Origin: Ruegeria meonggei
GTDB taxonomy: Bacteria; Pseudomonadota; Alphaproteobacteria; Rhodobacterales; Rhodobacteraceae
DNA: 64,000 nt
Assembly (NCBI RefSeq): GCF_900172215.1
Contig: NZ_FWFP01000007.1
Location: forward strand, 186,001-250,000
Direction: 5' to 3'
A program made the position numbers and the translations under genes. The notes below the pieces were generated by a model. That model saw nothing but the letters and a program-made list of their open reading frames with translations. It had not been told where the DNA came from and searched no databases. This document shows, piece after piece, positions 18,147-30,278 of the stretch; position 1 is the first letter of the stretch, and every line of letters starts with the position of its first letter.

Positions 18147-19997
18147 TCAAGCAGTCGTTGAGGCACTCAGTTTGGATTGACGTTCTACCCTCCCCATCGT
18201 CAGTTTCCGAGCCACATCGCGTGTCTCTTTCGGGTAAGCGCGAACAAACCCAGCGTCACAGGGGATTGTCTCAACTTCTCTTCGATCCAATGCCGGACCT
18301 AGATGGATCGCGGCGATCTCAAACTGCTCTGCCATTTGGCCCAGCGTTACGTAGGATTTTTCAAATATCTGAATGCTCTCTTCAGTGATGTAGAAACGAT
18401 AGTGCTGCGTGTCCGGGTTTCGCACTTTTATCTGCTTCAGGTATCCACCATCCCGCAATAACCGGATTGACCCGACGCTAATTCTCAAGCGGGCCGCCGT
18501 ATCCAGAAGCGACAGATCGCCGGAAAACACGCGCTCCGATTTCTCCAGGATCTCAGCGCAGTCGATAAGAATTCCAGCCAACCCCTCCACGTCCGGATCT
18601 CTCCAAACGCCGGTCAGTCGGTCCGCTGCCCAATCGGCGACAACGCGAGCCAGGGCCACCCCGCTCTGTCGGCTGTACTCCGAGAGGGGCACCCTATGAC
18701 GTGCCCGAGAGGCAATGCGCAGACCTGCAAGTCGGGTCAGCAAGTCCTGTACCGAAGATGTTGGCACGTATCGTAGAGACGTTCCAAAACGATAGGCTTC
18801 CAGAACATTCTGTCGGATCAGCGCCTTCACCTGGACCGGATGGATATTGAGCTGGACCGCGGTGGATTTGATATTCTGCAACCCGGACCAGAAGTCGAGC
18901 ACGGCAGCCAGATCCTCATGGCTGACATCTTTCATGTATGACAGGTCGCGCGCATTTTTGCCACGAAGATGGGCGAGAATACCTCGCACCCGAACCTCGC
19001 CGACCCCATGTAGCTCCCGCGCGCGTTCAAGCGTGATGAGTTTGGGCGCAGAGATTTCCGTACCCAGAACTTTCGCGCCGGTCTGCAGCGGATAGTTTTC
19101 ACGCACAAAATCCTGCACGCAAGCCCTGAGGACTGCTGTCGCCGGGTCCTCTTCAGTTTCCTTAAGCCAGGTGTAGAATTCGCCCATATCTGTCGTGAAA
19201 TAAGACCGCCTGGAGGAAGACCGGCGCCTGGCACGCTCCAACTCAGATTTCAGGGTTTCCGGTCCATTCTTCAAAAACTCGAAACCAGCCGACATGGCGG
19301 TACGCTCCTGGTCGAAGTCCAAATCCGAACGACTAACGCCGCGATCCATGGCAAGTGTCATGCCTAATGTAAGAGCGGCTTGATGAAGATGTGTCAGGTC
19401 CAAAGAGTCCAACCAGTCACCACAAACCCCATTCTTGATACGGCGGCTCAGGTAAGTTTCAAACGAGGATCGCCCGCGCGTTTTCGCGACCTGAGCGGCC
19501 TCCAAGATCAGATCCCTATGACGCGCCACTTGTTCAATCACGTCATAGGTGAGATGTGCATGCGATGCATTGGGAAGCTGGAGTAACGGAACGGCGTGTT
19601 TGGCACAGGTCCTAATCGGCAGCACCAACCACTCGAGAAGTTGAAACGCGCTCTCGGGACCAGAAGCCTCCATAGCCTCCACAATACATCTCGGACAAAT
19701 GCGGATGGTTGCACGCCGTAGCGTACCATTGGTAGCCGATGACAGCCCGACGAGATACCGGCAGGGACCAATCAACCTGGCCGCTCCTTGTTCCAGTGTG
19801 TTAAGCGGCACTCTAGTTAGCAGTGACAACGTCGCCAACTGGTCCAAATGTGCCGAGCAGATATGAGGCCATCGCATTCCAAGATCCGAGCAGAAATCAC
19901 GTGGCGTGCTGGTGTACAGCCGGGCCAAACGAGCAACATAACTTGACGGGGTCTCCCTTTCTGTGAAGGGGAGAATTGGATTCAGCAGGGGTATCAT
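18147..19997 (-). CDS. tniQ: TniQ/TnsD-type target-selection protein
   Basis: 616-residue target-site selector of a Tn7-like transposon. The N-terminal TniQ domain begins MIPLLNPILPFTERETPSSY and carries a zinc-finger pattern: CPRC near residue 100 and a CAKH pair about 35 residues later. The remaining 450 residues are helical with probable helix-turn-helix segments, including TAARLRISVGSIRLLRDGGY. This long, TnsD-like form, unlike short TniQ, usually reads a fixed chromosomal attachment site; the tRNA-Arg at 30.2 kb is one candidate. Its ATG overlaps the tniB/tnsC stop by 4 bp, so it is the fourth gene of a tnsA-tnsB-tnsC-tniQ operon. Confidence 0.85.
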   Translation of the reverse strand: MIPLLNPILPFTERETPSSYVARLARLYTSTPRDFCSDLGMRWPHICSAHLDQLATLSLLTRVPLNTLEQGAARLIGPCRYLVGLSSATNGTLRRATIRICPRCIVEAMEASGPESAFQLLEWLVLPIRTCAKHAVPLLQLPNASHAHLTYDVIEQVARHRDLILEAAQVAKTRGRSSFETYLSRRIKNGVCGDWLDSLDLTHLHQAALTLGMTLAMDRGVSRSDLDFDQERTAMSAGFEFLKNGPETLKSELERARRRSSSRRSYFTTDMGEFYTWLKETEEDPATAVLRACVQDFVRENYPLQTGAKVLGTEISAPKLITLERARELHGVGEVRVRGILAHLRGKNARDLSYMKDVSHEDLAAVLDFWSGLQNIKSTAVQLNIHPVQVKALIRQNVLEAYRFGTSLRYVPTSSVQDLLTRLAGLRIASRARHRVPLSEYSRQSGVALARVVADWAADRLTGVWRDPDVEGLAGILIDCAEILEKSERVFSGDLSLLDTAARLRISVGSIRLLRDGGYLKQIKVRNPDTQHYRFYITEESIQIFEKSYVTLGQMAEQFEIAAIHLGPALDRREVETIPCDAGFVRAYPKETRDVARKLTMGRVERQSKLSASTTA

Positions 19998-20989
19998 GCA
20001 TCTTCTCCATCTTTAGGCTTGTCTCCGTCGTCCAGGAGCTTTCTTGGATTGATGCGCCCGTAGTCCTCGGCGATGAAGACATTCATCCAGGCCTCTGCTC
20101 CATTCCTTTCGCTGTAGATCTCAGCAAAATGCCGAATGCCCAGTTTTGCGTCGAACCCATCTGTAAACAGCGCATGTGAAACCGCGAGGACAACAATCTC
20201 GGCCAAAAGCCCAAACTGATAGTCCGCCGCGTGAATCAACCGCATGGCAAAGGCTTCGTTCTTAACCGAGGTCGCCACATCTATCTGCGCCCGATCAGCG
20301 TATTTTTGAACGATCTTGATGACGGGACCGACATCGCGCAGTGAATGCAATCGACCGATTTCCACCGGGTCAACCCGCCGTGCCAACTGAGCATCCTGGT
20401 TTACAATATCTTTGAGACCCGGCATCCCAGACAGCAGCAGACTCACAGGCCAGACAGAGTTTTCCATCATCGACTTAAGTGTGTTCACGACGGACTGACG
20501 CTCTTTCTCGGTTTGGTATCGAGCCAAATCCTGCGCTTCGTCAAAGCCAAGAAAAAGCGTATGGCGACGTTTGAGTTGTTCCTTGACCTGATCCCAAATA
20601 GCCGGTCCTTGTTTGTTGCCGGCATAGGGATATCCCAGCGCCCGTAGCGTAGCTGCACCAACGAACTTCATCGTAGCCGGGCTTGGCACCTGAAGTCCGA
20701 TATACTCACAGATTTCCTCACCTGGGTCTGTGGCCATCAAACGCCTATATTTGTGAACGAGATGTCTTACCGCTGTGGTCTTGCCACTGCCCGACTGTCC
20801 CACCAGCATAATGCTCCTGGCTTTGAAGACGACACCGTCGGCATCGTCAGCACGCCGCTGCTCAAGGAGACTGCCAAAGCGCGCGTCTAGCTTGTTGAAT
20901 TCCGGACGCGGGATGTGGAGAGTTCTCAAGCTTTGCACGGTTTTACGGATGTCTTTGTCAGACCGGAAGTTTTGAGGGTCCTTACTCAT
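19994..20989 (-). CDS. tniB: TniB/TnsC AAA+ transposition regulator ATPase
   Basis: 331-residue AAA+ ATPase that links target selector to transposase. Walker A GQSGSGKT (residues 64-71) and Walker B LFLGFDE (145-151) are intact, and sensor-type residues follow in SLLLSGMPGL. ATG 20989 lies inside the end of the upstream tniA gene (8-bp overlap), which supports coupling; a longer frame to 21082 has no support. Members of this family form filaments on DNA and recruit the transposase. Length is close to that of TniB of Tn5053-type elements. Confidence 0.87.
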   Translation of the reverse strand: MSKDPQNFRSDKDIRKTVQSLRTLHIPRPEFNKLDARFGSLLEQRRADDADGVVFKARSIMLVGQSGSGKTTAVRHLVHKYRRLMATDPGEEICEYIGLQVPSPATMKFVGAATLRALGYPYAGNKQGPAIWDQVKEQLKRRHTLFLGFDEAQDLARYQTEKERQSVVNTLKSMMENSVWPVSLLLSGMPGLKDIVNQDAQLARRVDPVEIGRLHSLRDVGPVIKIVQKYADRAQIDVATSVKNEAFAMRLIHAADYQFGLLAEIVVLAVSHALFTDGFDAKLGIRHFAEIYSERNGAEAWMNVFIAEDYGRINPRKLLDDGDKPKDGEDA

Positions 20990-23192
20990 CACCCTTCTCC
21001 TCGCCTCGATCTGCGTCTCTGGCCATGCCGTGATCGCCGTCTTCATCCTCCAGTTCATCGCTGAAGAACCACTCGTCTTCATTCACCTCCGGCAGCACAG
21101 GTTCCTCCTCGGGCAGCGGACCGGGAAGGTAGGGAATTTCATCTGACAGGAAACCGCTTTCCGGATCAGGGATTGCCGCCTTTTTGTCAGAGGCAATTTC
21201 CGGATCAGAGCCTAAAGACAGACCCCAAAACGTCTCTTTCTGCGCACGTCTGATCTGATCGCTGGTAAGCTTGATCGGGCCAAGCTGCCGCGCTGCGCAT
21301 TGTTCAGCGTCGATCTCCTTGATCCTGCGAATAGCGCGGTCCACCACACTCTGAGTCAAACTGGCGGCAGCGCGATTGTTTTGACGCAGTTCAAATATTG
21401 ACCGCTCCCAAGAGGCGAAGGATACCCCTTCGAGCCCCTCAAGCTTTGCACCCAGCGTTGACCACCCACTGTCTTTACCGCGCTCCAACCAGACAGAAAT
21501 GTGCCCCATATCTTCGGTATCGATACTGACTTCGACACTCTGCTGGCCGTATTTTTGAAAGTGTTCTGCCAGACGTTTGGAATGATAGTTCACGCCGTTC
21601 ATCAAAACGCCGTGCCGACCAGTCTCACGATTGAATTTCAGCCCCAGGATATGACGAAGCTTGTGCTTGCTCATCGGAGGAGACCAGCCGAACTCAGTGA
21701 CCAGCTTGTCCCACATGTTGTTGGGCGTTGCGTATTCCAAACCCCGATGCTTGCGATTGTGGTAGACATCGACGGTGAAGCGTACCAGCAACTCCAAGAT
21801 ACTCTCGGCAGTATGCACCGCGTATTTTTCCGACGGGTAATCCCCTCTTTGCTGCGGATTGGAGAATGTGCGCCCCGTCAAGTAAGGCATCAACAAAATC
21901 GCTATTGAGCGGAATAAGCGCTCAATAACCCCTCTCAACTTGGGAGCCCCAGCAGGTAGAACAGAGTAGTCGATCGCCAAATCGGAAAGCGCAGCCTTGA
22001 AGTCTGCGTTAACAAAGGCCGGACCGTTGTCGACAACTACATGATAAACATGCCCATGTTGCGACCAGGACGTTTCACATCCAAGCTGGGACGCGAGCAT
22101 GGTCTTGCCTCGCATGGCCATCCAAACGACTGCTTTCGCATCTTCGGCACTTGGTTTGGTCGAGAGTTTGAGACCGAGTATGGAGCGGCTGGCGACGTCA
22201 ATGGCAGCGCAAACCCAGTAGCGACCAAGCTCAAGATCACGCAGGCTCGGATGGGTGATATCTGCCCCTGCGCCCTGCAAGATCGACATGAGATCAATTT
22301 CCCATTCATCCATTTCGACACGAAGCAATGGTGCGTGAAGCTTGATGCCCCCGGCATGGGCGCCCAGCTTGTTCTTGGCATGCGCTACACCGCTGCGCGC
22401 GGCCAGGACTTCAAACCGATCCAACTCACTAATGCGCCGTTCAATCGTGCTCAGGGAACATTCTGGAATAAGATCTTCGCCAGCAAAGCCAAGGGCGGTG
22501 TTCTTTCGTCGCACTTCAGCATTTACGGCATCCAACACCTGCGAAGGGTAGATCTCGTTGGGATGAAGGTAGTTCTCGAGTTCCAACTGAATAATCGCTT
22601 CGGCCTGGGGATGGACACGCTTTCCGTTTTGGCCATTGAAGATCGACTTTTTGATAAAGATCGCCGGATCTCTGGTCTTTTCCCACTCACGGTATTTTTC
22701 CATGATGCTAGTGCGACCGGGCACATAAGAGAGAAAAGTGGGATCAACCCCCTCGCCCTTAATGCTTTTAAGCAGCCCATCGTGGAGCTTCTGCTGTACG
22801 CGTTCCTGCAGCTTCGGCAGAAATTCAGGCCACCGCTTTGATGATCTGTTGAACCACTCTTCGGCTTCACCCTCGCTCATCGATTCACACCAGGCTTCGC
22901 CAAGAAACGCGTTGAACTGGGTTTTGCGAGACAGCCGCGATATCACCGCACGTCCCATCCGCGCATGGCGCGCAGCTTGACGATCGGAGAAATAGCCATA
23001 TTCGATTGAGAAGTGCCCATCTTCTAGCAACCTCGCGAGCTCCGCATGGGAAAACGTCAGCGGTACAGCATCCGCTTGTTTTGCCAGCAGGGTCACCGTG
23101 TCGTCTGTCACCTTTTGAACAAAGTGAAGCTCACCCTTTCCGAGCACCGCATCTTCATGGCTGATGTTGAGCTGAAACTGGATATCTTTCAT
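20982..23192 (-). CDS. tniA: TniA/TnsB-type DDE transposase
   Basis: 736-residue retroviral-integrase-fold transposase with a Mu-type C-terminal domain. The catalytic triad is visible: D295 in VEMDEWEIDL, D388 in YHVVVDNGPAF and E424 in LRGVIERLFR, with 35 residues between the last two (D35E spacing). N-terminal helix-turn-helix segments would bind the element ends. The C-terminus is acidic and proline-rich, expected for the TniB contact region. It overlaps tnsA by 4 bp upstream and tniB by 8 bp downstream. Pairing with TnsA predicts cut-and-paste rather than copy-in transposition. Confidence 0.92.
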   Translation of the reverse strand: MKDIQFQLNISHEDAVLGKGELHFVQKVTDDTVTLLAKQADAVPLTFSHAELARLLEDGHFSIEYGYFSDRQAARHARMGRAVISRLSRKTQFNAFLGEAWCESMSEGEAEEWFNRSSKRWPEFLPKLQERVQQKLHDGLLKSIKGEGVDPTFLSYVPGRTSIMEKYREWEKTRDPAIFIKKSIFNGQNGKRVHPQAEAIIQLELENYLHPNEIYPSQVLDAVNAEVRRKNTALGFAGEDLIPECSLSTIERRISELDRFEVLAARSGVAHAKNKLGAHAGGIKLHAPLLRVEMDEWEIDLMSILQGAGADITHPSLRDLELGRYWVCAAIDVASRSILGLKLSTKPSAEDAKAVVWMAMRGKTMLASQLGCETSWSQHGHVYHVVVDNGPAFVNADFKAALSDLAIDYSVLPAGAPKLRGVIERLFRSIAILLMPYLTGRTFSNPQQRGDYPSEKYAVHTAESILELLVRFTVDVYHNRKHRGLEYATPNNMWDKLVTEFGWSPPMSKHKLRHILGLKFNRETGRHGVLMNGVNYHSKRLAEHFQKYGQQSVEVSIDTEDMGHISVWLERGKDSGWSTLGAKLEGLEGVSFASWERSIFELRQNNRAAASLTQSVVDRAIRRIKEIDAEQCAARQLGPIKLTSDQIRRAQKETFWGLSLGSDPEIASDKKAAIPDPESGFLSDEIPYLPGPLPEEEPVLPEVNEDEWFFSDELEDEDGDHGMARDADRGEEKGDE

Positions 23193-23920
23193 GGCCTGTC
23201 CTTTCCGGGGGCAACAATTGTGTTGATGGAGATGAGTTCACGCGAATTGGCCTTCAGAAGCCTCGCGTAGATGGCTCGGAAAGCCGCCCGGAACCCGCGC
23301 GCGCCAAGGTCCAGAGGTTTTATGAGATCACTGATCGAGAGTTCGTCTGTGAGACCCGAAACAAGCTCAGCAACTAGAAGATCGGCCTCTTCGTCTGGGC
23401 AGCGCCGAAAGAAGTTCAAAAGCTCTGCGTTTTGCACTTCTTTTGGGTGGTGGTTGTGTTCAGTGATGAGGCAGACTTTGTCAGCAAATCCCTTCGGCAG
23501 ATCGCGGCGGATTGCAGCGAGCGTGCTTCTGAAGTTCAGCCTTTCAACCCGTTCAGCGGGTTTGACGGCCATCGCAACCTTGGATCCGTCCCGGTACTCC
23601 GCCAGATAATCAAAGCGATGCGTGCGCTGACGCCCTGAGGCATCAATATAGCTGACGGGACGCGGCTGATCATGCAGGTTCCAAAGGTTTGGATCCGCGA
23701 GTGCGAGTAGGCAGGTTACCCGTTCATGTTGACTCGCTGAAATAAACTGCCGCCAGTACATTTCGGCAGGTGTCATAGCTAAGGTAAAACCGCGCGCAGT
23801 GAACTGTGAGCGCGCAGGAAACATCAGCCCAGCCGTGGTTGGCTCAGGGGGACGATAGAAATCGTCGTTGTCATCTTTAGACATATCTCTTGCCGTGGCT
23901 GCGAGCTCTGCCCGCGCCAT
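23189..23920 (-). CDS. tnsA: TnsA-like endonuclease
   Basis: 243-residue probable 5'-strand nuclease of a Tn7-like element. A PD-(D/E)XK pattern is visible: glutamates at E53/E66 in the first helix, D104 in THRFDYLAEY, and K120 in VAMAVKP. The residue two before the lysine is alanine, where Tn7 TnsA has glutamine, so full activity is not certain. ATG 23920 is preferred because GAGGAG lies 5 nt upstream; the frame extends to a TTG at 23947 without a site. It is the first gene of tnsA-tniA-tniB-tniQ and stands 25 nt after a terminator-like hairpin. Homology is judged from pattern and position, so moderate confidence. Confidence 0.72.
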   Translation of the reverse strand: MARAELAATARDMSKDDNDDFYRPPEPTTAGLMFPARSQFTARGFTLAMTPAEMYWRQFISASQHERVTCLLALADPNLWNLHDQPRPVSYIDASGRQRTHRFDYLAEYRDGSKVAMAVKPAERVERLNFRSTLAAIRRDLPKGFADKVCLITEHNHHPKEVQNAELLNFFRRCPDEEADLLVAELVSGLTDELSISDLIKPLDLGARGFRAAFRAIYARLLKANSRELISINTIVAPGKDRP

Positions 23921-23945
23921 TCGGCTCCTCTTCATTTGTGGAGAC

Positions 23946-23992
23946 AAAAGGCGACCCGCCCGCTGAAACGATCAGCGCGGTTGACGGGTCGC
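23946..23992 (-). terminator. Intrinsic terminator-like hairpin just ahead of tnsA
   Basis: On the minus strand GCGACCCG pairs with CGGGTCGC, with an inner stem CGCTGA / TCAGCG and a five-base loop, followed by CTTTTGTC. It ends about 25 nt before the tnsA start codon, which leaves no room for a separate promoter. Either it is an attenuator or read-through is normal. Confidence 0.6.
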
Positions 23993-24012
23993 AAATTTTG
24001 GGTCATGAATGA

Positions 24013-24041
24013 GGTGCAAACGGGTTCTATTCATTTGCACC
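24013..24041 (-). repeat. Inverted repeat GGTGCAAA-N13-TTTGCACC in the tnsA leader
   Basis: Perfect 8-bp arms (24013-24020 and 24034-24041) around a 13-nt loop, between two other hairpins in the leader upstream of tnsA. It could be an RNA hairpin or a protein-binding palindrome. Confidence 0.55.
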
Positions 24042-24042
24042 A

Positions 24043-24073
24043 AGCCCTTTGAGAGTGCCAGCTCTCGGGGGCT
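24043..24073 (-). repeat. Two-part hairpin in the tnsA leader
   Basis: Outer stem AGCCC / GGGCT and inner stem GAGAG / CTCTC with a short loop, lying 10 nt after the three-codon ORF. Together with the two hairpins closer to tnsA it makes a strongly structured 150-nt leader. Confidence 0.5.
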
Positions 24074-24082
24074 TTGCTATTT

Positions 24083-24094
24083 CTAGAGGCTCAT
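24083..24094 (-). other. Three-codon ORF (Met-Ser-Leu-stop) behind a near-consensus Shine-Dalgarno site
   Basis: ATGAGCCTCTAG follows AAAGGAG with an 8-nt spacer, a better ribosome site than most genes nearby have. Minimal ORFs placed before structured RNA are known in attenuation systems. It could also be the broken start of a lost gene, because the frame closes again two codons later (TAG AAA TAG). Confidence 0.4.
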
Positions 24095-24120
24095 TTGTTG
24101 TTCTCCTTTCTTTGAAGTGG

Positions 24121-24249
24121 CTAGAACAGCACGAAGACAGGTGCATCGAGGACATCAACTAAGGCTTGCTCGATGCGCGAATTCAGTAGTTTGCGTAAAC
24201 TGGCGAACCCACACCCAATAGACTGTTGTCTGGCCTCAGTCTGAAACAT
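24121..24249 (-). CDS. Possible 42-residue leader peptide
   Basis: ATG 24249 to TAG 24121, with AAAGGA about 10 nt upstream. The peptide contains QQSIGCGFASLRKLLNSR and a hydrophobic end (VDVLDAPVFVLF). No homology recognised. It lies between the Ner-like repressor gene and the hairpins ahead of tnsA on the same strand, so it may be a leader peptide of the transposition operon or a small regulator. Support is limited to the ribosome site and position. Confidence 0.4.
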   Translation of the reverse strand: MFQTEARQQSIGCGFASLRKLLNSRIEQALVDVLDAPVFVLF

Positions 24250-24311
24250 AGGATCTCGGTCCTTTCTGGTTCACAAATGGGTCCCATCGCAACGCCACAA
24301 CCGTTCCAGAA

Positions 24312-24587
24312 CTAGGGATTTACGGCGTTCCCGGGGCTTTGCTCCTCGGCCACCTCTGATTGGGCGTAGCGCTCAGGAAACAGCTCCTCAACCGACTGAT
24401 TTAACACAGAAGCCAGGTACTTTTCGATTTTCTCCGAACGGCTTTTCCCAAGCGACACAGAACTGACGGCGCTGGCTCCGACACCGATCCGTTGCGCTAG
24501 GTCCGTGAGCTTCAACCCTCTGATTTCTAATTCACACTTGATCCGCGCGTGCCTTGCTCGGTCGATAGGGATATCGTTGTGTCTCAT
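24312..24587 (-). CDS. Ner/Nlp-like helix-turn-helix regulator
   Basis: 91-residue DNA-binding protein. The segment LTDLAQRIGVGASAVSSVSL (about residues 27-46) forms the helix-turn-helix, and the end of the domain has SVEELFPERY, which matches the SPxEIWPxRY ending of Mu Ner and Nlp proteins. ATG 24587 is used because GAGGT precedes it by 7 nt; the longer frame to 24620 has no site. Ner of phage Mu represses the early transposition operon, so the same role over tnsA-tniQ is a reasonable inference. The first gene of the leftward transcript; diverges from the 172-residue gene. Confidence 0.75.
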   Translation of the reverse strand: MRHNDIPIDRARHARIKCELEIRGLKLTDLAQRIGVGASAVSSVSLGKSRSEKIEKYLASVLNQSVEELFPERYAQSEVAEEQSPGNAVNP

Positions 24588-24631
24588 GACTTGACCTCGC
24601 CAATGGAGTCGATTTTTCAACTATCCCAAAT

Positions 24632-24662
24632 AGATTTGATCGTGCGCGCGGCAGTCAAATCT
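24632..24662. promoter_or_regulatory. Inverted repeat AGATTTGA-N15-TCAAATCT, candidate Ner operator
   Basis: Perfect 8-bp arms (24632-24639, 24655-24662) around a GC-rich 15-nt spacer, 45 bp from the Ner-like start and in the 177-bp gap shared with the divergent 172-residue gene. Position and symmetry fit an operator for one or both promoters. A second TCAAATCTTTTA-like half overlaps the right arm. Confidence 0.5.
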
Positions 24663-24764
24663 TTTAAACGATGCCCCAAATTGCAAAAACACCTTCTTGA
24701 AAGCAAAAGCATAGAAATGGCGAATTGAAGACAAAGCCGTATGTAGTTTGCCCGCGATGTGTGA

Positions 24765-25283
24765 ATGGTTCAGAACGACTACGATACTTTCCGAAAGATA
24801 GACCCGGCGGCAGTTACACGCTGTCATATTCGTCTGGAAAAAAATGGTGATCTCCGTGCGACGGTCTGGTTGAAAGCCAAATCAGGGCTACCTTTCCAGT
24901 TCTCGTCTAGGCATCTCGTTGCAGACTTTCACGCCGTAGAAATGCTCAAGGATTTGCGTGCACGGTACTATTGTTCTCGCAAGTCTCTCTGGAGGCTGCT
25001 TGATCAACTGGGTTTGGATCCGTGGGAGCGCGCCATCAAGGACTACAAATCTGATATACCTTTGGCGCAGGTAGCAAAACGTCATGGGTTGAAAAAAACG
25101 ACACTTTCCAACGGCCTTAAGCATCGCGAAGTTCCAATTCGCATTGGAAGGCCTCCTATTCAATTCGATAGCATCGAAGTTCAAAAAGCGCTTCAAGACT
25201 GCCCTTCAGTCAAAGAACTGAGCAGAAGGTTAGGGTCTTCTTGGGACAAAGCCAAAGAGCAGTGGAAATCTTTTGAAGGATAG
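24765..25283 (+). CDS. HTH-containing protein of unknown function
   Basis: 172 residues, no family recognised. Residues about 90-125 read as a helix-turn-helix (LAQVAKRHGLKKTTLSNGLK), and a second candidate lies near the C-terminus (CPSVKELSRRLGSSWDKAKEQW). The N-terminal half has beta-strand-like segments (RCHIRLEKNGDLRATVWLKA). It diverges from the Ner-like gene and is the only rightward gene in the island, so it could be an activator, a target-selection partner or cargo. Its 3' end overlaps the 3' end of the low-confidence 25210-25536 frame. Confidence 0.65.
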   Translation: MVQNDYDTFRKIDPAAVTRCHIRLEKNGDLRATVWLKAKSGLPFQFSSRHLVADFHAVEMLKDLRARYYCSRKSLWRLLDQLGLDPWERAIKDYKSDIPLAQVAKRHGLKKTTLSNGLKHREVPIRIGRPPIQFDSIEVQKALQDCPSVKELSRRLGSSWDKAKEQWKSFEG

Positions 25284-25536
25284 GCATCCATTTGATGTTT
25301 ATTGCTCGAGATTTGCGTTGTGCGACAAGACTGATCGCTAGATTTGTAAGCTCACAGAACGATTGCGGATCTGCGATCATGAGCCCATTGCCGCCATCGA
25401 TCGTGCTTTGGCCCAACAGGTCGAATGAGCCCACAGCCGCCATTGCCCCAGTTTCGAGTATTTGCATGTGCGGCATGATGGTCGGCCCTTTGCTGCCGTT
25501 CGTATTACGCAAAACCAATGACCGCTCCGGGATCAA
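25210..25536 (-). CDS. Possible small gene or gene fragment downstream of the STAND-type NTPase
   Basis: A 108-codon frame begins with TTG 5 bp after the NTPase stop, on the same strand. Residues 20-80 read like real protein (MPHMQILETGAMAAVGSFDL and LMIADPQSFCELTNLAISLV), while the last 20 residues overlap the end of the 172-residue gene and look like run-off. It could be a partner protein of the NTPase truncated by rearrangement. No ATG start, weak ribosome site, no homolog recognised. Confidence 0.35.
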   Translation of the reverse strand: MIPERSLVLRNTNGSKGPTIMPHMQILETGAMAAVGSFDLLGQSTIDGGNGLMIADPQSFCELTNLAISLVAQRKSRAINIKWMPILQKISTALWLCPKKTLTFCSVL

Positions 25537-25540
25537 CTCA

Positions 25541-28500
25541 TCAATAGATTTCGCTCTCCAAAGAGCGGTTCACACCGTCCAGCATTGTAGCTGCCCAGTC
25601 TCCGAGGACCGCATCACTACTCCAAGAAGCAAGCGGCTCTGTGAAGATCAGTAGATGTGGTTTCCGCGAGCCGCTCCAAGAGCTGGGATAAATGCGCTGG
25701 CGCAAAGCATCACGGAACCGCTTTCTGTCGCCATACAGGTTGGCGAGTTTCTGGAGCGCGGGGTGCCAGTTCCATTTGCCGCTCTTCTGTTCGAGTATCG
25801 GGAAGAAGGTAAGGAGGAATGCAATGCGACCATCCGGATCGACCGCAACCCATTCAAGCATCAGTTCGATCGGGATATCGAATAGGGCTCCAGCGCCGAC
25901 GCGCGAGAGGTCACTTGCGAAGGGCTTGGTAGCGGAAGTGATGGTGTTCATCCGATCACGTTCGACCCGTGTTGCGATCTCGTAAAAGCTTGCGAGTACA
26001 GGCCAGACTGCAGCCGGAGCGCGTAGAACTATAGTGTCGAGGGCACCGCGTAGCACATCCGGAGGACCGCGGCGTCTCGATCCTGAGGTTCGGCATGCAA
26101 ACACTAGCTGATCGGCAAACCTACGAGCGAAGGTGTCGTCGATTCCGTTAGAGGCATCGACCAAACGGAGTAACCGACCGTAGGAATGATCAGCCATGGT
26201 AGTATTGCCATCTACTTCTTCGGCGATGGATGGTGAAAGGATCGTGAACTTTACCAGATCGACGATCTCGGGGGGAAGAATCTTCTGGCCGTGTGTATAC
26301 ATGGACAAGATCTCGAGTGCAGCCCATGCTCCTCCGTCAGAGCCACGCTCAACGAGCGCCTCGATAAACGTTGACAGAGCAGCGTGACCGACTTCCTCGA
26401 GACGACGTCCATAGGAAACCGAGACACTCTGAGCCGGCGCCACTCTGCCCTCGCGAACGTCGTTCGCGAAGTTGTTGAGGCGTTCATCAGTGACGCGGAG
26501 CGAAGTCATAATATACATCGGATTGGCAGTGAGGACACTCGATGTCTTTGCAATGGCTTCAAGCTTACCGACGCCGTCTGGTTTATCTTGAAGGTGGTAA
26601 TCGAGAGCCGATAAGAGGGAAGCGACAAAGTTGACGCCTTCCCGTGTGCCGCTCTCATCTAAGGCAGTGACGGCTTGCTCGAACGTATCCAAAGGGTCCC
26701 GCAATTCCGGGGCCAAGGCGTTCGCAAAGGCCTGTGGCGCATTCATCTCTTCGATCGCCATGACGTGGATGGCGCGGGAAAGCTGCTTCGGATTTCTAGC
26801 GATCATATGCGCAAGTTCTTGCACGCGACGCGCCGAATATTCGTAGTCGGGCTGGTCTTGGTCCTGAGCGTAGCGTTTCGCTGGATCGTGCAGGTCCGCC
26901 ATCCAGAAGCGGCTATAAAGACGGACCAGATCTACCGGGTCGGTCGGTAGGGTCGCGTCGAACAGCCTTCGCACAGCGAGCGAGAAGTCATTCGGCTCTT
27001 CGGGTCGATCGAAATAGAGCCAATCACCGATCCCGTGAGTGGCGTCGAACCAATGACCAGAGTAGGCAACCACTTCTTTGACAAATATCTCGAGGGTGGG
27101 CAAAAGTTCGGGCGAGAGGAGATTGCGGATGTCGCCTGCGACATGCTCCTCGACTACCCGGCGCAGTTTGATGTCCTTGCGCCAAAGTTCGAGCAGGCGC
27201 TGGAGAGCCCAATCGAAATAGGCGTTGATAGTGCCGTGATCGGCAGGCACCCATTCCGGGTGATAGGCTTCGGCGCCGATCTGCTCGAACTGTTCTGATC
27301 GAGAGATACGGGTCTGGATCATCGCCCCGAGCGCTTCGACACCAACGCGACGGATACGCGGATCGTCTTCGTCGAGGGCCTGTTCCAGGGCAACACGTCG
27401 GAGGCGATCATCGGCCTGCGAGCCTGTGAGCGCGACCTGGAAGAGCTGGCGTAACAGCTCCAAGATCGGCTGTGAGCCCTCGAGAGGGGCGACGGCCGCG
27501 AGCCGCAGGACCATCTGCACGGCGGGGCCGAAGCTTTTCTGGCGCGAGGCGAGGAGACGCAGCGCGTCAACGAGCTCTTCAGTGACGGAAATGGCTTCGA
27601 CATCGGAAAGCGATACATGCGCGATCGCCCGGTATAGGGATGTTCCTGTGCGATCGGGTTCGACATGAACGAAGGCAGTGAGATAGGGCGCGACGTCGGG
27701 TCGGACGATGTTCGCGTCAGCGAACGAGGTGCGTAATAGCGTATGGATGGCCTCGCTCAGCGTGCGGGACCGCGCGAGGAAGCGCCAGCGTGCGAGCATG
27801 GCGTCTCGGTGCTGACACGGCGCACTGTCCAGAAACGCTACCAGTGTTGAGGGGCGCAGATAATCAAGGCGACGCAGCGCGAGGAAGTTAGCAATCGGAC
27901 GGGGCTGTACGGTCATTGCGCTATGATTGCGTTCGACCAGATGCTGCCGGGTGGCAATGACGAGATTCTCGTACATCAGTTCACCCTTCATATGAACGAG
28001 CATCTCGGCGAGGTTATCGAAGGCGGCTGGATTCTCATCGGGCGAAAGGTTGTCGAACAATGAGAGGCATTCGAGCGCCCGCACAGTTTCTCGGTCAGCG
28101 CCGACCGCATCCATAATCTGCTGCGCAACATCGTCGACCGACTTTAGGATCGCTCTCTTCTCGTAGCTCTCGGTAGCGAACACAGCGATGCGGGGAAATC
28201 CGTCGCAAAGGTCGGCGATATAGTCGAGTTCATCGGCCTTGGCCTTGGTGAGCTTGGTCTTAAGGATGCCCCTTATCGTCGAGCGATCGGCCTTGGTGGG
28301 CCGAACCATGACGCAATGATCATCATGTTCGAGCCCCTCGGTGCCGATGGTGATGATGCGAAGCTGGCTACCTTCAGTAAGAGCGAGCGCGTTTAGCTCG
28401 CGAGCTTTGTCGAGCGGGCATCCGTCCACGACAAGCACTGCCGCCGAGCCCTCCTTCACGATCTGGTTCGCGACGTCCCATAGGCGATCTCCAACCTGGC

Positions 28501-29353
28501 TGGACTCGCAGAAAATGAAGTTGGCGGCAGCGAGTCCCCTGAGTAGACCAGTGCCCGTGCTAAGCGCTTGATACAGTGCGCGGGTCTTGCCGATTCCTGA
28601 GGCACCCCAGATGCGAACGGAAGCTCCAGACTCTTCCAATTCGACGAAGAGGCGCTCGGCAAGTTGAGAAAACTCGATCGCATCGGCTTCATACGGGCCG
28701 AGCAAGAATTTGCGGTCAGGGCTCTCAACGAACGTTGGCGCGGTGATGTCCGCGCGTTTGCCCCAATGATCGAGGGTAGAGAAGCCGGCAAGGTCGATCG
28801 CAGCGTGCCGCTGCTTGATCCAGACAGCAACACCGGGGTGCGCGCTGGCCCACGCGGCGAGCTTATTTCCCTCGTATACATCGACCGTGGCGAGATTGGT
28901 GGGATCACCACCGGCGGTCGCAATGCCATTCTTGATCGCTCTGACGCGATCTTCCGGTTTATTACCGACGAGCGCCGTCGCAGTGATGCCGATATAGCTG
29001 CCGCCGCGAGCGAGAACTTCGCGCACAGCGTCATTCAGAATCTTGGCCGCGACTCTCTTCTTTTGGGTGGGCTTGGTCCAAACCTCTTTTTCCCACTGAG
29101 CGTCGCCCGCGTCCTTCGCCTTGCATTGAAAGATGATGTCGCAGCTTGGGAAAAAATCTGTTGATGCTTCGCCACCGGCCCAGACAATTCTCGCGTCCTG
29201 ACCTCCATCGGCGACTGTGATTTGGAGCGGAACATCGACCCCTCGCAGTGGAACGCCAGCATTGCGGGCTTCGGCGTAAAGAAGACGGCGCAACAACTCG
29301 ACGAGCTCGTCTCCAGTGAAATCTTTGATTTCGTTAGGATGGACTGTAAACAT
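25541..29353 (-). CDS. Mrr-like nuclease / STAND-type P-loop NTPase, probable antiviral defence protein
   Basis: 1270 residues in three parts. Residues about 1-180 look like a Mrr/PD-(D/E)XK nuclease: ADGGQDARIVW (D53) and DIIFQCKAKD (Q76-x-K78) make the D...QxK active-site pattern, with E28 as a possible fourth ligand. Residues about 215-470 hold a P-loop ATPase with Walker A GASGIGKT (250-257) and Walker B AVLVVDG (305-311). The remaining 800 residues are helical repeat-like, without strong domain matches by eye. This effector-NTPase-sensor order is that of antiviral STAND (Avs) proteins, in which the C-terminus recognises a phage protein and triggers the nuclease. The location inside a transposon island supports a defence role. 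Exact Avs type not assigned. Confidence 0.72.
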   Translation of the reverse strand: MFTVHPNEIKDFTGDELVELLRRLLYAEARNAGVPLRGVDVPLQITVADGGQDARIVWAGGEASTDFFPSCDIIFQCKAKDAGDAQWEKEVWTKPTQKKRVAAKILNDAVREVLARGGSYIGITATALVGNKPEDRVRAIKNGIATAGGDPTNLATVDVYEGNKLAAWASAHPGVAVWIKQRHAAIDLAGFSTLDHWGKRADITAPTFVESPDRKFLLGPYEADAIEFSQLAERLFVELEESGASVRIWGASGIGKTRALYQALSTGTGLLRGLAAANFIFCESSQVGDRLWDVANQIVKEGSAAVLVVDGCPLDKARELNALALTEGSQLRIITIGTEGLEHDDHCVMVRPTKADRSTIRGILKTKLTKAKADELDYIADLCDGFPRIAVFATESYEKRAILKSVDDVAQQIMDAVGADRETVRALECLSLFDNLSPDENPAAFDNLAEMLVHMKGELMYENLVIATRQHLVERNHSAMTVQPRPIANFLALRRLDYLRPSTLVAFLDSAPCQHRDAMLARWRFLARSRTLSEAIHTLLRTSFADANIVRPDVAPYLTAFVHVEPDRTGTSLYRAIAHVSLSDVEAISVTEELVDALRLLASRQKSFGPAVQMVLRLAAVAPLEGSQPILELLRQLFQVALTGSQADDRLRRVALEQALDEDDPRIRRVGVEALGAMIQTRISRSEQFEQIGAEAYHPEWVPADHGTINAYFDWALQRLLELWRKDIKLRRVVEEHVAGDIRNLLSPELLPTLEIFVKEVVAYSGHWFDATHGIGDWLYFDRPEEPNDFSLAVRRLFDATLPTDPVDLVRLYSRFWMADLHDPAKRYAQDQDQPDYEYSARRVQELAHMIARNPKQLSRAIHVMAIEEMNAPQAFANALAPELRDPLDTFEQAVTALDESGTREGVNFVASLLSALDYHLQDKPDGVGKLEAIAKTSSVLTANPMYIMTSLRVTDERLNNFANDVREGRVAPAQSVSVSYGRRLEEVGHAALSTFIEALVERGSDGGAWAALEILSMYTHGQKILPPEIVDLVKFTILSPSIAEEVDGNTTMADHSYGRLLRLVDASNGIDDTFARRFADQLVFACRTSGSRRRGPPDVLRGALDTIVLRAPAAVWPVLASFYEIATRVERDRMNTITSATKPFASDLSRVGAGALFDIPIELMLEWVAVDPDGRIAFLLTFFPILEQKSGKWNWHPALQKLANLYGDRKRFRDALRQRIYPSSWSGSRKPHLLIFTEPLASWSSDAVLGDWAATMLDGVNRSLESEIY

Positions 29354-30201: not shown

Positions 30202-30278
30202 TGGCGGACCGAGGAGGATTCGAACCCCCGACCCCTTGATTCGTAGTCAAGTACTCTATCCAGCTGAGCTATCGGTCC
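30202..30278 (-). tRNA. tRNA-Arg (anticodon ACG)
   Basis: 77-nt cloverleaf on the minus strand. Acceptor GGACCGA pairs with TCGGTCC, followed by discriminator G and encoded CCA (30204-30202). The D-arm has AGCTGGATA, the anticodon stem CTTGA/TCAAG encloses loop CTACGAA (anticodon ACG, read as ICG), and the T-arm loop is TTCGAAT. The 3' end faces the island, the usual side for integration of mobile elements. Confidence 0.95.

Follow-up and report, generated by a model that had tools for sequence, protein, structure and literature searches.

The gap between a Ner-like regulator gene and tnsA in a Tn7-like element of Ruegeria meonggei is filled by a leader that is real and widely conserved. It is probably a cis-acting mRNA leader, which holds down the translation of tnsA and, via overlapping stop and start codons, in all probability also that of the later genes. 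Its anatomy is conserved, it contains a conserved mini-ORF, and a covariation signal was found for a helix, P4, which is formed by a linker and the Shine-Dalgarno region of tnsA. Translational control of tnsA is supported by these sequence comparisons. Discussions of how Tn7-like elements are controlled usually center on target choice and transcription. Searches of the open-access literature, with subscription papers and preprints outside the scope, showed no comparable leader in Tn7-like elements. We rate the sequestration of a transposase ribosome-binding site as already known and the RNA architecture as apparently new. The leader is a natural co-occurrence of an ORF of two to four residues, a sequestered Shine-Dalgarno motif, and a split ribosome-binding site, and it is open to analysis with simple reporters.

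The Tn7-like element and its genes

The window, i.e., the whole stretch of 64,000 nucleotides that was analyzed, contains the element on its minus strand, with the gene order Ner-like HTH_35 regulator, tnsA, tnsB, TniB/TnsC ATPase, and tniQ. It was classified as Tn7-like because a TnsA-like nuclease, a DDE TnsB, an AAA+ TnsC, and a TniQ/TnsD protein are encoded in one operon. The genes are:

24312..24587, minus strand: Ner/Nlp-like HTH_35 regulator gene (Pfam PF13693, E = 1.7e-11 for the longer ORF call)
23189..23884, minus strand: tnsA, TnsA-like endonuclease subunit (NCBIfam NF033179, E = 7.8e-7; start revised to 23884)
20982..23192, minus strand: tnsB (rve and Mu-transpos_C), start overlapping the tnsA stop
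19994..21082, minus strand: tnsC/tniB ATPase gene (Pfam PF05621, E = 1.7e-17)
18147..19997, minus strand: tniQ/tnsD-like gene (Pfam PF06527, E = 2.6e-13), start overlapping the tnsC stop

The regulator gene starts with an ATG at 24587, and the longer ORF call begins with a TTG at 24620. By eye, a ner-like ORF was seen upstream of 17 of 27 related leaders. The tnsA product reached 28.8 bits with NF033179, under the cut-off of 110, and had no match in Pfam; the putative identity of the gene rests on this sub-cut-off match and on plasmid relatives that are annotated as TnsA. The start of tnsB lies within the stop codon of tnsA and that of tniQ within the stop codon of tnsC, and therefore a gate at tnsA could reach the later genes by translational coupling. 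A search of two flanks for terminal TnsB sites and a 5-bp target duplication gave no end pair.

Two further features of the neighborhood were observed. A cargo gene for a protein of 1270 aa (25541-29353, minus strand) matches the PADLOC model PD-Lambda-4_A (E = 1.7e-49), and thus the element probably carries an anti-phage defense gene. A tRNA-Arg (acg) gene at 30202-30278 (minus strand), on the far side of the presumed element, might be an attachment neighborhood for the TniQ/TnsD protein.

Anatomy of the leader

In the direction of transcription of tnsA the parts of the leader are the mini-ORF, the hairpins H1 and H2, a pyrimidine linker, hairpin H3 with a GUCAA motif, the tnsA Shine-Dalgarno motif, hairpin H4, and the AUG of tnsA. 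The features of the region are:

24121..24249, minus strand: ORF of 42 codons, resembling the C-terminus of Ner, probable remnant of a second ner-like gene
24083-24094, minus strand: mini-ORF ATG-AGC-CTC-TAG (MSL*), with the Shine-Dalgarno motif AAAGGAG at 24103-24109
24042..24074, minus strand: hairpin H1 (from folding), with an A-rich spacer 5' of it
24013..24041, minus strand: hairpin H2 (from folding)
24005..24013, minus strand: linker CUCAUUCAU, 5' strand of helix P4, pairing with 23928-23935
23951..23992, minus strand: hairpin H3 with the GUCAA motif at 23981-23985 (from the alignment of related leaders)
23925..23935, minus strand: 3' strand of P4, AUGAAGAG (23928-23935), overlapping the tnsA Shine-Dalgarno motif GAGGAG (23925-23930)
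23892..23925, minus strand: hairpin H4, between the Shine-Dalgarno motif and the tnsA ATG (z = -3.6 against mononucleotide shuffles)

An initial annotation of this DNA had listed a 42-codon ORF, a three-codon ORF behind AAAGGAG, and hairpins before tnsA. Both ORFs are present, and three hairpins (H1, H2, and H3) were confirmed, with a folding that is beyond chance. The window leader of 350 nt has a folding z of -3.2 and none of 100 shuffles was as stable, and for 23930-24050, which comprises H2 and H3, z is -5.4 and none of 200 shuffles was as stable.

Two other parts of that annotation had to be revised. The distance between the last hairpin and tnsA, given as about 25 nt, is about 65 nt after H3, when the TnsA start common to the relatives, the ATG at 23884, is used. 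An ATG at 23920 is replaced by ACG in L003, L087, and L100, which are close relatives, and 23884 is probably the true start. The 42-codon ORF had been regarded as a component of the leader; it is absent from the conserved anatomy and lies outside of the conserved leader. In a comparison with the Ner C-terminus 10 of 18 residues were identical (single-pair E = 4e-5), and L003 contains a longer frame of this type. Therefore, it is best read as the remnant of a second ner gene, which is probably decaying.

The absence of a promoter between the hairpin and tnsA, a further point of the annotation, is in agreement with a scan of 23500-25500, which covered E. coli-type promoters and found none of that type. 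A terminator scan yielded four sites in 2 kb, compared to 2.3 +/- 1.5 in shuffled sequences.

Occurrence of the leader in related elements

A starting point was a stretch of 86 nt on a plasmid of Tritonibacter mobilis, which is 78% identical. The covariance model R1 was built from four sequences, taken from this match and from the closest TnsB relatives, and it found the leader in further loci. In 394 genomes of the family it gave matches at E<=1 in 34, of which 7, including the genome of the window, were strong (E<=1e-15). A scan of 84,980 species genomes with an exact pattern retrieved 27 stretches, 24 of which had at least 50 bits with R1 and came from genera that we take to belong to the Rhodobacterales, while three were below that value. 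These three, in Bacteroidota and NC10 (L071, L072, and L077), had no match to the R1 model and were dropped as chance matches. Of 27 distinct strict-pattern leaders, 23 adjoin a TnsA-matching ORF, and L036 and L074 also show a tnsA start; this set is not independent, because the pattern and R1 were built from these leaders. L084 and L092, both from Tateyamaria, are leader-like with about 51 bits and had no recognizable tnsA in the stretch searched, and were read as decayed or repurposed copies.

Conservation of the structure in related elements had been proposed as a check in the initial annotation, and it was analyzed with a set of loci that was chosen blind to the leader. A TnsA profile matched 106 of 390 genomes of the order, and the 30 loci of the best matches were selected; they include the window's own locus (L097), and several repeat earlier loci, e.g., L098, L101, L105, L106, and L118. 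In 24 of these 30 loci the leader is present directly before tnsA. Eleven of them, L097 among these, had at least 67 bits with R1, eight more had E<0.1, which is weak alone but rightly placed, and five (L098, L105, L111, L118, and L120) showed the same order of parts by eye. In L114 and L119 the leader was not seen, and L124 was weak. In L115, L116, and L117 a GUCAA leader stands before an extra small ORF (MFTEPR...), which itself precedes tnsA, and thus the leader may control another first gene there.

The leader recurs beside TnsA proteins that are only 30-68% identical to that of the window (12 relatives). A class-wide TnsA search in 385 genomes gave eight matches (L125-L132) in seven genomes besides that of the window. 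Among these eight, only L126, from another family, was similar in layout by eye: it has a hairpin, a start-stop unit AUG-UAA preceded by AGGAGG, and 9 nt that are complementary to the Shine-Dalgarno motif of tnsA; the helix with this complement is absent from the predicted best fold. This layout hints that the arrangement might extend past the family. By eye, no such leader was seen in twelve more distant TnsA loci that the TnsB search had yielded (L016-L019, L022, L023, L025-L029, and L031). Six other loci (L004, L006, L013, L020, L021, and L030) had no TnsA in the stretch searched and were covered by the scans, L004 also by the ORF list. The strict pattern was not found in viral contigs, a search of viral contigs for TnsA relatives gave 20 stretches that matched a pattern, none of which was confirmed, and a search of phages for similar DNA found none. 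Rfam 15 contains no family for the leader; only a tRNA was matched in the window, and four matches in the leader region reached at best 16.5 bits, with the cut-off at 50.

The comparisons described below are based on an alignment of 25 distinct leaders and on a table of 39 leaders, which was anchored on GUCAA and contains 23 representatives that are less than 80% identical to each other. Repeat leaders were counted once, and L084 and L092 were left out of both collections. Not in the table are L003, L008, L010, L065, L073, L074, L076, L080, L087, and L090, which are close to rows that were kept, and also L126. For L086 the start in the table lies 6 nt upstream of the ATG in the alignment, which touches only its H4 distance. 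The whole leaders had a mean folding z of -3.7, with 20 of 23 below -2, compared to -0.4 and 1 of 23 for tnsA coding controls.

The mini-ORF

An ORF of two to four residues with a Shine-Dalgarno motif is present in 29 of the 39 leaders and in 18 of the 23 representatives. In 1000 dinucleotide shuffles the mean was 1.1 (maximum 5) for the former and 0.7 for the latter, and none was as high in either set. The ten leaders without the mini-ORF are L005, L011, L012, L066, L121-L123, and L115-L117. In many leaders the end of ner and the start of the mini-ORF overlap as ATGA. Elsewhere the mini-ORF forms the end of ner in the same frame, and the ner frame of L036 crosses it out of phase. These varied overlaps indicate that the mini-ORF has been retained in different frames relative to ner.

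Helix P4 and the tnsA Shine-Dalgarno motif

Pairing is possible between the linker and the Shine-Dalgarno region of tnsA, and both segments vary jointly across lineages. On average, a linker fits its own Shine-Dalgarno region better than that of another leader. Examples of such swaps are CUCCUU:AAGGAG, CAUCCCCU:GGGGGAUG, CCACCUUCU:AGAAGGUGG, CGCUUUCUUC:GAAGGAAGCG, and GCCUUCU:AGAAGGC. In a permutation test with the 25 leaders, in which relatedness is kept, none of 5000 permuted partner sets was as good as the observed one. With the 23 representatives 37 of 20000 were as good, and 91 of 20000 when only uninterrupted helices were admitted. Other segment pairings, which served as controls, gave 5126, 18002, 1424, 3141, 5523, and 6622 of 20000. 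Thus, of the covariation that the initial annotation had asked about, a signal was found for P4, and the region has an anti-Shine-Dalgarno helix with compensatory changes, as is characteristic for a leader that sequesters the Shine-Dalgarno motif.

By our own reading, the best linker helix lies on or beside the Shine-Dalgarno motif in 17 of the 23 representatives and elsewhere in L009, L024, L100, L109, L111, and L124. In the window P4 is formed by CUCAUUCAU and AUGAAGAG, with eight pairs, one bulge, and -10.2 kcal/mol; it covers only part of the Shine-Dalgarno motif and is among the weaker cases. An RNAalifold consensus of the 25 leaders, calculated for the sense strand only, recovered H3 and part of H1, and did not recover P4 and H4. 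A competing helix P0, in which the linker would pair with the mini-ORF or A-rich region to give a two-state switch, was rejected, since 14204 of 20000 permutations were as good; it is strong only in single leaders, e.g., L014.

The location of P4 also bears on the idea that processing of the leader yields a small RNA that acts in trans, like 5'tnpA of IS200 (PMC12594629), with control of tnsA being secondary. The leader is highly structured, which is in agreement with this idea, as is the IS200 precedent itself. However, P4 reaches the tnsA Shine-Dalgarno motif and a TnsA ORF adjoins most of the distinct strict-pattern leaders, as described above; beside this stand L115-L117, which put another ORF between leader and tnsA. 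We regard a small RNA as quite improbable.

Hairpins H3 and H4

H3 is well kept, and the proof of covariation is moderate. In the 25 leaders 93.2% of the cells were paired, compared to 85.1% in shuffles, and the covariation score was 0.294, compared to 0.183 (0 of 500 shuffles as high in both cases); the structure tested came from the same alignment, and the test does not remove relatedness. When the partners were slid by one to three columns, 53.2% or less of the cells were paired. Five pairs were changed in both partners, a number reached by 109 of 500 shuffles, and there were 15 pair types, reached by 226 of 500; neither count is in excess, so that H3 exceeds the shuffles only on measures that are sensitive to relatedness. 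An alignment of H3 with seven rows was set aside, because L063 was misaligned. The presence of GUCAA in 39 of 39 leaders is no evidence, because GUCAA served as the anchor, and, as the leaders were chosen by means of GUCAA and the strict pattern, the conservation of both is not independent. The GUCAA motif is also kept in L099 and L100, which were found via TnsA and do not match the strict pattern.

The initial annotation had interpreted the last hairpin as similar to an intrinsic terminator, and had suggested that the operon is switched by antitermination or translational attenuation. H3 is GC-rich and is followed by CUUUUG in the window, and L036 has eight U at this place, as would be expected for transcription attenuation or antitermination at H3. 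However, although the hairpin itself is kept, only 9 of the 39 leaders have at least four U in the stretch scanned after it. A GC-rich hairpin with a conserved U-tract is thus not found at H3, its terminator character being weak also in the window, and a terminator at H3 is unlikely because the U-tract is not conserved. For this reason antitermination was rejected and attenuation at H3 is deemed very improbable, while translational control, the other half of the proposal, gains from the compensating changes in P4 and the conserved mini-ORF.

Translation could also enter the region in another way, if the AUG in the linker (24006) opened a conserved leader peptide of 20-40 codons (MTQ-x-x-x-PVNRA...) that is coupled to tnsA. 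In 25 of 27 strict leaders this frame continues through H3 without a stop and encodes similar peptides. Yet no Shine-Dalgarno motif was seen before this AUG, the AUG is absent from that place in the divergent leaders that were read, and L008 and L087 have an in-frame stop near the start. These stops speak against the linker-encoded peptide, which we consider extremely unlikely.

Control of tnsA translation by P4 is preferred. The last paired base of the H4 region is 4-11 nt away from the AUG in 36 of the 39 leaders (exceptions: L012, L024, and L066). The stretch has a z below -2 against mononucleotide shuffles in at least 22 of the 39 leaders, and L115-L117 are without a stable H4.

The active strand

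Palindromic covariation alone is no indicator of the acting strand, and folding favors neither: the pairs predicted for the two strands alike comprise 23 G-U and 33 A-C cells, and of five classes three (A, F, and G) fold better as antisense. By position the strand from ner to tnsA is favored as the active one, because P4 lies on the tnsA Shine-Dalgarno motif, H4 lies between this motif and the start codon, and the conserved mini-ORF is located there together with its own Shine-Dalgarno motif.

A short antisense RNA from the plus strand, comparable to R1 CopA or IS10 RNA-OUT, which would start near H3, end at H1, and bind the leader to control tnsA, is conceivable because H1 is terminator-like on that strand. 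H1 and its A-rich 5' flank correspond to a stem plus a T-rich tail on the plus strand, and the site (24046-24071) has 11 pairs, the most of the four sites of the terminator scan, and the tail CTTTGCTATT. An A-rich 9-mer with five to eight A precedes H1 in 39 of 39 leaders, including those without the mini-ORF, as a raw count without control. In the leaders read, the complement of GUCAA, TTGAC, resembles a -35 element and lies 17 nt before a purine-rich stretch. In the window, this motif and the terminator-like H1 with its flank fall within 23981-24086 (plus strand). The lack of a strand preference in folding would also be compatible with an antisense RNA. However, a -10-like hexamer was not seen at the right place, the scan for E. 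coli-type promoters was negative here as well, and the pairing of P4 with the tnsA Shine-Dalgarno region would be needless for an antisense RNA. Antisense control is therefore viewed as unlikely.

Proposed mechanism and comparison with known systems

With the strand from ner to tnsA as the presumably active one, the following mechanism is regarded as the most likely one. The linker after H2 would pair with the tnsA Shine-Dalgarno region and close P4 around H3, and P4 would repress the translation of tnsA by hiding its Shine-Dalgarno motif. The mini-ORF would act as a guard, as it could capture ribosomes that finish ner and halt them just before H1; ribosomes halted there would not run into the leader, and thus P4 would not be melted. 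Some factor, perhaps one that reads H3, may open the switch. With P4 open, the folded H4 would bring the Shine-Dalgarno motif and the AUG to a usable distance. In its most specific form the proposal is a new class of RNA switch, guarded by a minigene, in which the GUCAA hairpin H3 is read by a factor from the element or the host and toggles P4, and in this way controls the coupled translation of tnsABC-tniQ in a large group of Tn7-like elements; in this form it is tentative and rather doubtful.

Parts of this arrangement have counterparts elsewhere. For tnpA of IS200 in Salmonella it has been reported that a stem-loop in the leader sequesters the ribosome-binding site and that transposition is kept low (PMC12594629). 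The likeness is that the ribosome-binding site for a transposase is hidden by structure of the mRNA leader. In contrast, IS200 is a single IS element with the antisense RNA art200, and a mini-ORF or a hairpin between Shine-Dalgarno motif and AUG is not described in the parts of that source considered here. In genes 38 and 25 of phage T4 a structure is located between the Shine-Dalgarno motif and the AUG, and the ribosome-binding sites are split (PMC3014915). H4 resembles this structure; however, it promotes translation in T4, while here the Shine-Dalgarno motif can also be paired in P4. The bar minigenes of phage lambda consist of a start codon, one codon (AUA), and a stop codon and encode fMet-Ile (PMC8012679), and the mini-ORFs of L007, L109, L110, and L113 also read MI*. 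Expression of bar is toxic in cells that are deficient in the rescue of peptidyl-tRNA, whereas the mini-ORF stands at a regulatory junction and has no known toxicity. CvkR of the V-K CRISPR-associated transposons likewise regulates a Tn7-like transposition operon, but it is reported to be a MerR-type protein that represses transcription, in contrast to the RNA leader found here.

The loop of H1 often has six bases of the form CNNNAA (CGCCAA, CUGCAA, CGGCAA, and CGCUAA), and it might be a second recognition site.
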